Source: Comamonadaceae bacterium
GTDB taxonomy: Bacteria > Pseudomonadota > Gammaproteobacteria > Burkholderiales > Burkholderiaceae_C
Reading direction: 5' to 3'
Assembly: GCA_947450675.1 (NCBI GenBank)
Contig: CANFWI010000010.1
Location: forward strand, 1 to 64,000
Length of the DNA: 64,000 nt
The notes beneath the pieces were generated by a model. That model was given only the letters and a program-made list of their open reading frames with translations, did not search any database and had not been told where the DNA came from. This document shows, one piece after another, positions 16,606-19,485 of the stretch. The position numbers and the translations under genes are program-made. How positions within the stretch are numbered: position 1 is the first letter of the stretch; each line of letters begins with the position of its first letter.

Positions 16606-17670
16606 TCAGCGAACGACTTGCGCCAACTCGCCCGTGGCGTATTTGGCCGCCACGACCGACAGGCTGTCGCCTTTGATCTTGCTGGCTTGGCCTTCACAAC
16701 CGAACTCGATGTAGCGCTGTTTACACAAGGCTTTGGCAGCTGCCGTGGCTGGCTTGAGCCATTCACGGGGGTCAAATTTAGATGGATTTTCAGCCATGAA
16801 TTTGCGCACAGCGGCGGTCATGGCTAGACGAATATCGGTGTCGATGTTGATCTTGCGCACGCCGAACTGAATGGCTTTTTGAATTTCTTCCACCGGCACG
16901 CCGTAGGTTTCTTTCATGTCGCCGCCGTACTGGCGAATGATCGCCAGCAGGTCTTGCGGCACGCTCGACGAGCCGTGCATGACCAAATGCGTGTTGGGAA
17001 TGCGGCGGTGAATTTCTTTGATCAATTCAATCGCCAGAATGTCGCCGGTGGGCTTGCGCGTGAACTTGTAAGCGCCGTGGCTGGTGCCGATGGCAATTGC
17101 CAGTGCGTCGAGCTGGGTGCGTTTGACGAAGTCAGCGGCTTGCTCAGGGTCGGTCAGCAATTGCGCGTGGGTCATCACGGCGTCGGTGCCGTGGCCGTCT
17201 TCTTTGTCGCCTTGCATGGTTTCCAGGCTGCCGAGACAACCGAGTTCACCCTCAACAGAAACGCCGGTGGCGTGGGCCATTTCAACGACTTTGCGGGTGA
17301 CTTCGACGTTGTACTCGTAGTCGGCGATGGTCTTGCCATCGGCCATCAGCGAGCCGTCCATCATGACCGAGCTGAAGCCCAAGTTGATGGCGCCGCGGCA
17401 GACGTCAGGGCTCTGGCCGTGGTCTTGGTGCATGACGACAGGAATGTGCGGATAGCTTTCAACTGCGGCTTGAATCAGGTGCTTGAGAAAACCTTCGCCG
17501 GCGTATTTGCGGGCGCCTGCGCTGGCTTGCATGATGACGGGTGCATTGACCTCGTCCGCGGCCTGCATGATGGCTTGCACTTGTTCAAGGTTGTTGACGT
17601 TGAACGCGGGGATGCCGTAGGTGTTGGCTGCTGCGTGGTCGAGCAGTTCGCGCATAGAGACGAGAGCCAT
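16606..17670 (-). CDS. fba: Fructose-bisphosphate aldolase, class II (Calvin-cycle subtype)
   Basis: 354 residues. It reversibly splits fructose-1,6-bisphosphate to DHAP and glyceraldehyde-3-phosphate. Zinc-binding and catalytic elements are visible in [22 protein letters not shown] and [14 protein letters not shown]; the [13 protein letters not shown] and VMHGSSSVP segments bind phosphate. The long form with [27 protein letters not shown] (start) matches the Fba subfamily used in beta-proteobacteria for glycolysis and the Calvin cycle. No Rubisco is in the window, so nothing implies autotrophy. The pyk gene is 381 bases upstream on the same strand. Confidence 0.96.
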
Positions 17671-17800
17671 GGATTTAATCCCTTGAACTTTGTTGAATGG
17701 GTTGGTAACTCAGAGGTCAGCAGCAGATTTTACCTGCCGACTTTGCGCTTCTTGGCCAGACCGTGGCGAGATACCGCGCTTTAGGTCTATTCGGCTCTGG

Positions 17801-18006
17801 CGTGGATGAGGTGCTGCGGCGGTCGCCTCATACTGGGGTACCAGAAATCGGCAGCCGCCGCAGCACCTCATCGACGCAACCGTGGTGCGCCTGAAGTGTT
17901 GAATGCACCGCACGCTAAAAATGTCGCTATCAAGGGCGAGTGGGTTGGGCGGGTGGCCGATTTCTGGTACCCCAGTATGAGGACGCCGGCCCAACCCACT
18001 CACCCG
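17801..18006. repeat. Two hairpins sharing an inverted 27-bp loop core (pyk-fba intergenic)
   Basis: This is the main content of the 381-base gene-free stretch 17671-18051. Hairpin A has perfect 18-bp arms at 17805-17822 and 17855-17872. Hairpin B has perfect 13-bp arms at 17938-17950 and 17989-18001. Each is extended by 3 bp beyond one mismatch. The arms of A and B are unrelated. Their loops both carry the same 27-bp core, at 17826-17852 and, exactly reverse-complemented, at 17956-17982. The core itself contains CTGG-GGTA-CCAG, a small nested hairpin. The rest of the stretch (17671-17800, 17873-17937) shows no gene I can support; the fba promoter must lie there or upstream. No other copy of the core was seen in the window. 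Confidence 0.85.
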
Positions 18007-18051
18007 CCAACACCAAACCAAGACCGCAACAGCACCCGAATCCGACCAGCC

Positions 18052-19485
18052 TCAAGCCACCCGACAAATCTTCAGCATGTTCGTGCCACCCGGCGCACCC
18101 ATCGGCTCGCCGCACGTGATCGCGTAGACGTCACCGCTCTCCACAATTTGACGGCGCTGCAAATGCGCTTCCGCCTGGGCCAGCGCAGAGTCGCGGTCAA
18201 CGATGGTGTCCATCAGCAAAGGCCGCACATTCCGGTAAAGCGCCATCTTGCGCTGCGTTGCCAAGCGTGGCGTGAGCGCATAAATCGGCACACGAATGTC
18301 GTGCCGGCTCATCCACAAAGCCGTTGAACCGCTGTCGGTCAACGCGACGATCGCCTTGGCACCCAAGTGATGCGCCGTGAACAACGCGCCCATCGCAATC
18401 GATTGGTCAATGCGGCCAAACGTCTTGCCGGTGAAGTCGGCCTCCAGCTCGCGGTACTCGGCTTTTTCAGCTTCCACGCAAATCTTCGCCATCTCCTCAA
18501 CCGTCTCCAGCGGATAGCGGCCGACTGCAGTTTCGGCGCTCAACATCACCGCGTCGGTGCCGTCCAGCACGGCGTTGGCCACATCGCTGACCTCAGCGCG
18601 GGTCGGCACCGGATTCAGGATCATGCTTTCCATCATCTGCGTCGCCGTGATGACCAATTTATCGGCGGCACGGGCCATCTTGATCATGCGTTTTTGCAAG
18701 GCCGGTACAACGGCATTGCCGACCTCAATTGCCAAGTCACCGCGGGCCACCATGATGCCGTCGCTGACGCGCAAGATTTCATCCAGATTCGGAATCGCTT
18801 CAGCGCGCTCGATCTTGGCGATCAGCCCCGGCTTGTGTTTGTAAGGCGCGGCCGCCACGTTGCACAGTTGGCGCGCCATTTCCATGTCGGTGGCGTTTTT
18901 CGGAAAGCTCACCGCCACGTAGTCGGCCTGAAAACTCATGGCCGTTTTGATGTCGTCCATGTCCTTGCTGGTCAGCGCGGGTGCTGTCAGGCCGCCGCCT
19001 TGTTTGTTGATGCCTTTGTTGTTGGACAGCTCACCGCCGACCTTGACGCGGGTCTGAATTTCTTCACCCCGCACCGCGTCCACAGTCAGCACAATCAAGC
19101 CGTCATTCAGCAGCAGCACGTCGCCGGCTTTCAGGTCGCGCGGCAGTTCTTTGTAGTCAAGTCCCACGCCCTTGATGTCACCGGGTTCCGTGCGCGAAGC
19201 GTCCAGCACGAATTTTTCACCGGGCACCAGCAGCACCTTGCCTTCAGCAAACTTGCCGACCCGAATTTTCGGGCCCTGCAGGTCGGCCATGATGGCGACT
19301 TCGCGGCCGACGCGTTGCGCGGCTTCACGCACCAGCGCGGCAGTTTTGATGTGGTCTTCCGCCTTGCCGTGGCTGAAGTTCATGCGCACCACGTTGACCC
19401 CCGCGGCAATCATTTTTTCAAGCATGGCTGGGTCGCTGGAAGCGGGCCCGAGGGTGACGACTATTTTGGTGGCGCGGCTGGGCAT
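18052..19485 (-). CDS. pyk: Pyruvate kinase
   Basis: 477 residues. It transfers phosphate from phosphoenolpyruvate to ADP. TKIVVTLGPASSD at the start, NVVRMNFSHG, the catalytic Lys/Mg site region LIAKIERAEAIPNLDEI and MVARGDLAIEVG, and ITATQMMESMILNPVPTRAEV are all present. The ATG at 19485 was chosen because MPSRATKIV is the normal start and CGGAGA sits eight bases before it; a longer frame to 19521 adds 12 unlikely residues. It is divergent from the desaturase gene. Confidence 0.96.
   Translation of the reverse strand: MPSRATKIVVTLGPASSDPAMLEKMIAAGVNVVRMNFSHGKAEDHIKTAALVREAAQRVGREVAIMADLQGPKIRVGKFAEGKVLLVPGEKFVLDASRTEPGDIKGVGLDYKELPRDLKAGDVLLLNDGLIVLTVDAVRGEEIQTRVKVGGELSNNKGINKQGGGLTAPALTSKDMDDIKTAMSFQADYVAVSFPKNATDMEMARQLCNVAAAPYKHKPGLIAKIERAEAIPNLDEILRVSDGIMVARGDLAIEVGNAVVPALQKRMIKMARAADKLVITATQMMESMILNPVPTRAEVSDVANAVLDGTDAVMLSAETAVGRYPLETVEEMAKICVEAEKAEYRELEADFTGKTFGRIDQSIAMGALFTAHHLGAKAIVALTDSGSTALWMSRHDIRVPIYALTPRLATQRKMALYRNVRPLLMDTIVDRDSALAQAEAHLQRRQIVESGDVYAITCGEPMGAPGGTNMLKICRVA

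Follow-up and report, generated by a model that had tools for sequence, protein, structure and literature searches.

The locus between pyk and fba

The window, i.e. the whole 64-kb stretch of DNA that was analysed, contains two hairpins in the gap between the genes for pyruvate kinase (pyk) and class II fructose-bisphosphate aldolase (fba), Table 1. No sign of a role of the element for either gene was seen.

Table 1. Features of the pyk-fba locus (positions in the window)
Feature	Start	End	Strand	Remarks
Class II fructose-bisphosphate aldolase gene (fba)	16606	17670	-	PF01116, E 4.7e-97; downstream neighbour, outside the element
Hairpin A	17801	17876	+	Stem register of 27 positions (outer arm 17801-17827, inner arm 17850-17876), 5x5 internal loop, CTGG/CCAG mini-stem, GGTA loop; from folding and family register
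Core of hairpin A	17826	17852	+	27 bp
Spacer between hairpins A and B	17877	17931		Small third stem, 8 pairs, about 17882-17911
Hairpin B	17932	18007	-	Same design as A in opposite orientation, arms different; from folding and register
Core of hairpin B	17956	17982	-	Exact reverse complement of core A
Pyruvate kinase gene (pyk)	18052	19521	-	PF00224, E 2.4e-114; upstream neighbour, outside the element

An earlier note on this DNA had described two hairpins with inverted 27-bp cores, and this was confirmed: both fold and the cores match exactly. RNA folding gave minimum free energies of -64.1 (z -10.65) and -60.0 (z -10.16) kcal/mol for the two strands of hairpin A and -52.4 (z -6.26) and -50.4 (z -6.02) kcal/mol for those of hairpin B, and none of 200 shuffles folded as well. 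The minimum free energy of the spacer was -11.0 (RNA folding without a shuffle comparison). In both hairpins the RNA fold shows a symmetric 5x5 internal loop and then, towards the tip, the CTGG/CCAG mini-stem. The 'loop' is thus partly structured, and on the plus strand of hairpin A the GGTA tetraloop caps this mini-stem. The arm lengths of 18 bp and 13 bp quoted earlier reflect correct pairing but are too short, the family register being 27 positions. Hairpin A is paired out to the final register position; the last two positions of hairpin B are unpaired and its stem foot, from sequence and fold, is at 17934/18005. At up to three mismatches the two cores are the sole matches in the window, and 100 shuffles gave none. 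A covariance model scored 78.2 bits at 17807-17870 and 78.3 bits at 17938-18001 on the minus strand, both hairpins being among the copies from which the model was built.

Dispersal, arrangement and persistence of the copies

The window pair belongs to a dispersed repeat family that is probably mobile. An exact 21-mer scan of public genomes gave at least 117 loci. The titles of 80 of those listed name Comamonadaceae genera, Comamonadaceae, Burkholderiales or a beta-proteobacterium, and the other 37 listed are titled in the same way apart from two labelled as a Singulisphaera MAG. Within the host family the core pattern was matched in 36 of 399 genomes and 19 of 141 genera, a count that includes background (4 hits, in 4 genomes, for a reversed control pattern) and several carriers with two-mismatch matches only. 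An order-level survey with the covariance model matched 4 of 300 genomes, all in the host family, using stricter filters that lose weak matches; 276 non-matching genomes are not itemised. In a set of 61 genomes the 12 that matched were all congeneric with the window, and the 24 belonging to other families had no match. The genome of the window itself holds three pairs, two of them found by the core pattern at up to three mismatches and the third by the covariance model. This third pair (G000:C22:13403-13673, loci L341 and L342) has a divergent core, CCCG-AGTA-CGAC, which is identical at both ends. The earlier note had held that a mobile core would fail if the core were unique to this locus; uniqueness is rejected by the repeats in this genome, by the 21-mer loci and by the carriers in the family.

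Copy number ranged from 2 to 61 cores across 15 core-carrying genomes. In the 61-core genome (G085; G163 has the same contig coordinates) 24 elements were aligned and the spacer was 132 in 19 of them. These elements share a common unit of about 240 bp within mostly different flanks, five sharing part of their flanks, and in a self-comparison of the genome many copies had one limit of the element at almost the same base. A separate repeat of ~49 bp (L229:1497-1545, G163) lies ~90 bp beyond one element and recurs at several other sites in this genome.

No description of the core family was recognised in literature searches on this element or its neighbours, and the family is undescribed in the literature searched. 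An origin from a plasmid or phage was rejected: blastn with the 213-bp pair gave just five plasmid hits and one phage hit with coverage of at most 16% and E values of 0.2 to 0.7, a 30-nt query had no match in plasmids and no exact 24-mer was present in viral contigs.

The loci listed contain 192 distinct copies. The earlier note had asked whether copies always occupy a hairpin loop with new arms and always come in inverted pairs. The core does occupy the tip of a hairpin, and the arms are new. Among the matches listed, the majority are in inverted pairs, 121 of the 192 facing a partner no more than 450 bp away when six mismatches are allowed (7 outward and 8 direct partners), but 'always' fails since 71 have none; four of these 71 lie near a locus edge and the covariance model adds a facing partner, as read by eye, for five of the 71 (L025, L041, L042, L063 and L093). 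Core differences within pairs were 0.78 versus 1.52 (45 pairs, 0 of 1000 shuffles), a comparison confounded by lineage. At seven loci with wide-spaced or clustered hairpins (L010, L015, L028, L036, L047, L056 and L110) the genes between the ends were inspected and three ORFs were scanned against Pfam. No transposase was recognised by eye, and thus no autonomous copy with its own transposase between the ends. At L028:5499-7425 facing core hairpins enclose genes for a BglII-type restriction endonuclease and a DNA methylase, and the left hairpin resembles a hybrid of two outer arms. At L036:2997-4139 a BrnA antitoxin gene is enclosed, adjoining an apparent uvrA (named by eye), and L110 is apparently the same neighbourhood with other genes between the hairpins.

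One presence/absence site was found. Between the same two genes, apparently convergent as judged by longest ORFs, one genome (G179) has 349 bp including a pair and another (G283) has 6 bp. The missing 349 bp extend 35-40 bp past each stem. At this single site, which may reflect either gain or loss, a target duplication could not be made out. In two further genomes (G770 and G359) a pair lies beside the same right-hand gene and the left-hand neighbour could not be aligned.

Between pyk and fba a pair is also present in three relatives (G083, G076 and G065); a single hairpin is found in G005, and apparent remnants of a deletion are seen in G027 and G077. At the locus of rpmG, which we take to be the L33 gene, there are pairs in G009, G077, G076, G005 and G018. 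G027 has one hairpin there, a hybrid, and the core is absent from those more distant relatives that were examined. Read by eye, the conserved pair is flanked by two terminator-like hairpins. Pairs at loci shared across relatives make the window copy older than those species, and it would seem to be an old copy kept by vertical descent. Most other copies look old too, because several species share them at corresponding loci, where they are decaying. The arms drift at orthologous loci, with one-sided changes commoner than paired ones: over all sequence pairs, single changes left 121 mismatches, 39 G.U and 20 Watson-Crick pairs, and double changes 29 mismatches, 3 G.U and 59 Watson-Crick pairs. 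At two loci (L320/L325 and L315/L323) the orthologous pairs differ by a spacer segment of ~85 bp.

Hairpin design and strand asymmetry

The hairpins, ~76 nt in size, have a common design consisting of a sequence-free stem of ~27 bp, a constant 5x5 internal loop, a 4-bp mini-stem and an NGTA loop. Covariation in the stem was measured on 44 hairpins aligned gap-free on the core, hand-picked from a diverse list plus others with chance-looking rows omitted. Pairing was found in 88.3% of cells against 55.0% when shuffled, double changes numbered 345 against 109 when shuffled and all 21 stem pairs had changes on both sides. Sliding the register by one base cut pairing to 41-43%. On the measure 'further pair types', 18 of 500 shuffles equalled the observed value or did better.

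Among 164 non-redundant hairpins lacking the RAYT repeat, the Watson-Crick paired fraction was 0.99 at pair 2, 0.60 and 0.34 at pairs 3 and 4, 0.71-0.98 over pairs 5-28 and 0.45 at pair 29. Pairing fell from 0.84 at pair 28 to 0.47 at pair 29 in 64 arm clusters, which include RAYT-repeat copies, and from 0.77 at k=28 to 0.38 at k=29 in 13 wider clusters. This drop after pair 28 indicates a stem close to 27 bp in copies with unlike arms. Individual stem ends are scattered, 150 of the 164 lying between 26 and 32, for which chance extension can be part of the explanation. The mini-stem varies by double substitution (CTGG/CCAG, GTGG/CCAC, CGGG/CCCG and, in one place, CCGG/CCGG) and the unpaired bases of the tip are kept. 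At both ends of one pair (L345, G359) the mini-stem is replaced by ATG/CAT.

The idea in the earlier note of a mobile core holds as far as a dispersed repeat at hairpin tips, mostly in facing pairs, is concerned. However, insertion of a bare core into pre-existing local palindromes, one of its options, is unsupported; the arms look like parts of the element because their length is nearly fixed and because the whole unit, with outer flanks, is absent from one relative.

The two strands of the hairpin are not equivalent. The strand reading 5'-GATTTCTGGTAC[CT]CCAG[TC]ATGAGG-3', termed here the active strand, has at its tip the internal loop GATTT/YATGA, the 4-bp mini-stem and a TACN loop. Isolated non-Watson-Crick stem pairs on this strand in 171 non-redundant hairpins were G.U in 215 cases versus A.C in 17, G.A in 59 versus C.U in 6 and G.G in 17 versus C.C in 1. 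The direction of the bias was the same in pair members, in solos, in the 61-core genome and for cores on either strand of the locus; the RAYT-repeat subset of nine hairpins gave 6 versus 1 only. Since the copies are not independent, cluster counts were also made. G-type non-pairs exceeded C-type in 46 of 64 clusters and were fewer in 1, with 17 ties (p 7e-13). Counting once per cluster at every stem position gave a milder bias, with G.U 186 versus A.C 43, G.A 62 versus C.U 12 and G.G 22 versus C.C 7. The active strand also folds better than its complement, in 156 of the 171 hairpins with RNA parameters and in 140 with DNA parameters.

Changes polarised by the cluster consensus were C>T 37 versus G>A 11 and A>G 13 versus T>C 1; the latter rejects cytosine deamination alone as the source of the bias. 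Nor should the asymmetry arise from a bias in how one chromosome strand is replicated or transcribed, because facing pairs carry both orientations. We read the bias as the mark of a constraint acting on one folded single strand. The active strand points outward at both ends of a facing pair, so that on either strand it is the hairpin nearer the 3' end that is active.

Interpretation and alternatives

With modest confidence we favour reading the window pair as an old copy, passed on by vertical descent, of a non-autonomous mobile element that resembles a REPIN and has its ends recognised in the form of single-stranded hairpins. We infer that single-stranded DNA rather than RNA is the substrate, that an enzyme acts on it and that it is cut. 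A hairpin-binding, strand-specific HUH enzyme (TnpA-like) would recognise the folded single strand at each end. It would read the almost invariant tip on the active strand, and the sequence-free stem of ~27 bp may serve as a spacer or ruler to a cut near the stem foot. The functional hairpin would be the 3'-proximal one on either strand of a facing pair. More tentatively, and with a good chance of being wrong, the family may be a new class of mobile palindrome in which a protein reads the invariant tip, the stem sets the cut distance and the hairpin at the 3' end alone is functional.

Several findings count against a mobile DNA element. Many carriers hold just one or two pairs, the arms of the two window copies are not all paired to the last position and no transposase tied to the pair form was found among the loci examined. 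The missing target duplication at the presence/absence site and the apparent age of most copies weigh in the same direction. The 43 A.C pairs beside 186 G.U in the milder count are also unfavourable, and a G.U over A.C bias is expected of an RNA hairpin as well.

The end hairpins of IS200/IS605 elements are shorter than the core hairpins. They are similar in being single-stranded hairpins that are recognised, as PMC8266576 describes it, through the loop and unpaired or mismatched bases, and differ in that the core copies examined have no transposase gene visible between their ends and these ends are inverted. Strand specificity of this kind is also described for TnpAREP, which binds single-stranded REP and not its complement (PMC8266576). 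Integron attC sites act as a folded single strand, are strand-specific and vary in sequence with pairing preserved, much like the core hairpins. The conserved boxes of attC are near the foot, whereas column conservation in the core hairpins lies at the tip and not the foot.

The rival that we take most seriously, although we consider it improbable, is a dispersed structured RNA element in which the active strand works as RNA (e.g. as a protein-bound hairpin) and has spread passively. The roughly twelvefold excess of isolated G.U over A.C on one strand fits this, as does an A.G/G.A tandem adjoining the tip, which replaces two Watson-Crick pairs in about 65 of the 171 hairpins; such tandems occur in many RNA motifs. 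However, the excess of G.A over C.U and of G.G over C.C is similar in strength to that of G.U over A.C, and G.A and G.G enrichment would fit the mismatch stability of single-stranded DNA better than that of RNA. The rpmG pair sits between two terminator-like hairpins and, of 32 solos between co-directional genes as judged by our own ORF calls, 22 have the active strand antisense. Because of these three observations we lean to DNA as more probable than RNA. Searches of Rfam 15 also speak against an RNA: seven loci gave no match at gathering score, and an E-value search of the window at 17000-18700 gave 12 low hits, all below gathering scores.

Proper membership of a RAYT system, as a REPIN or TIRYT MITE moved by a resident RAYT, seems distinctly less probable. 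Like REPINs and BIMEs with their RAYT, the copies are short, intergenic, non-autonomous inverted hairpin pairs, two inverted hairpins being dispersed and forming a population in G085. They differ in that the tip and not the foot is conserved, the stem is free in sequence and nearly fixed in length and no PF01797 gene lies beside any core copy examined. The genome of the window has one PF01797 gene, of 233 aa. The co-occurrence of a RAYT gene with the core, put forward earlier as a check, turned out to be uninformative: PF01797, which also covers IS200-type genes, is near family-wide, being present in 25 of the 26 genomes with a core and in 22 of the 26 without. A core was present at none of 28 PF01797 loci at up to six mismatches in fetched flanks of at most ~1.5 kb, some clipped by contig ends, and none of these loci therefore has its gene flanked by the core hairpin. 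Linkage of the core to RAYT, when tested, did not discriminate. One genome (G206) has core hits and no PF01797 hit, in a fragmented assembly of 95% completeness.

The REP palindromes of PMC3733652 are given there as 20-40 bp with an unpaired GTAG or CGTC tag at one hairpin end. No such tag was seen in the 164 hairpins, in which 0.28 bits was the ceiling for every column flanking the stem on either side (k 29-49), a measure that would miss a tag at a shifting distance. The element works like a REPIN. We keep it apart from the tagged REP families on account of three tested features that it lacks: the tag, the size and the linkage to RAYT.

TIRYT elements have GGGGWSAS terminal repeats according to PMC3733652. 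In favour of a link, 26 of the 192 copies, among the matches listed, are centred in palindromes that carry GGGGTCAGA on either side. In G086 and G087, the two genomes in which this was compared, the repeat AATTGGGGTCAGATCAACATTAATTT also stands upstream of the RAYT-like gene, with an inverted copy downstream at one or no mismatch, so that it bounds the gene. Similar palindromes exist without the core, one example being a RAYT-type palindrome at L021:4058 with outer repeats like those of core-bearing copies. Core hairpins can therefore be carried within RAYT-type palindromes. Such a repeat is lacking, however, from the window pair and from the majority of copies, the match to the terminal repeats of a resident RAYT having been checked in those two genomes. 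The Beta-proteobacterial repeat element (BRE) is described as repeated, mostly intergenic and about 90 bp long, reported in Polaromonas, Rhodoferax and Acidovorax among others and abundant in Bordetella (PMC3110155). It differs, compared by description and not by sequence, in that several BREs at one locus lie in tandem (PMC3110155).

Sites for site-specific recombination, bordering an invertible segment or a cassette, are a very unlikely explanation. The cores are identical and inverted, and the restriction-modification system at L028 and the BrnA gene at L036 do lie between facing hairpins, but such cargo is seen in these two cases only. The spacer is not inverted at L314/L326 or L319/L324, where pair regions align end to end between species, and recombination within the cores would break the pairing of the arms. 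A bidirectional terminator or mRNA-end structure for the neighbouring genes is more doubtful still. The position is intergenic, and by our own ORF calls solos are convergent in 21 cases versus divergent in 9 (background 40 versus 53), a weak preference. However, pairs have none (7 convergent, 6 divergent and 39 co-directional), the active strand is followed on average by A-rich sequence and not by the T run of an intrinsic terminator, the genes at rpmG seem to own separate terminators and termination needs no invariant tip. An ordinary terminator pair is accordingly thought unlikely, and arms and core are not conserved together as one, which the earlier note had named as the other finding that would overturn a mobile core. 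Neutral palindromes matched by template switching, with a tip recognised by nothing, are scarcely credible: template switching can correct quasi-palindromes and the arms drift and collapse at orthologous loci, but the tip keeps its unpaired bases while the mini-stem changes by pairs, and the strand bias and near-fixed stem length would be unexpected.

The reading that we prefer is thus a mobile element recognised through single-stranded hairpins. In this family the tip of the hairpin is conserved along with the length of its stem but not the sequence of the stem, and only one strand seems to matter. Because there are copies with unrelated arms, genome sequence by itself is enough to reveal that a folded nucleic acid is under strand-specific constraint. 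The copies within RAYT-type palindromes suggest that such palindromes can apparently carry a second hairpin family inside. The mechanism would combine strand-specific recognition of the tip with a stem ruler. If the tip is the recognition site, the family would be a natural experiment on a hairpin enzyme that measures distance without sequence and would give a handle for finding such a single-strand hairpin enzyme.
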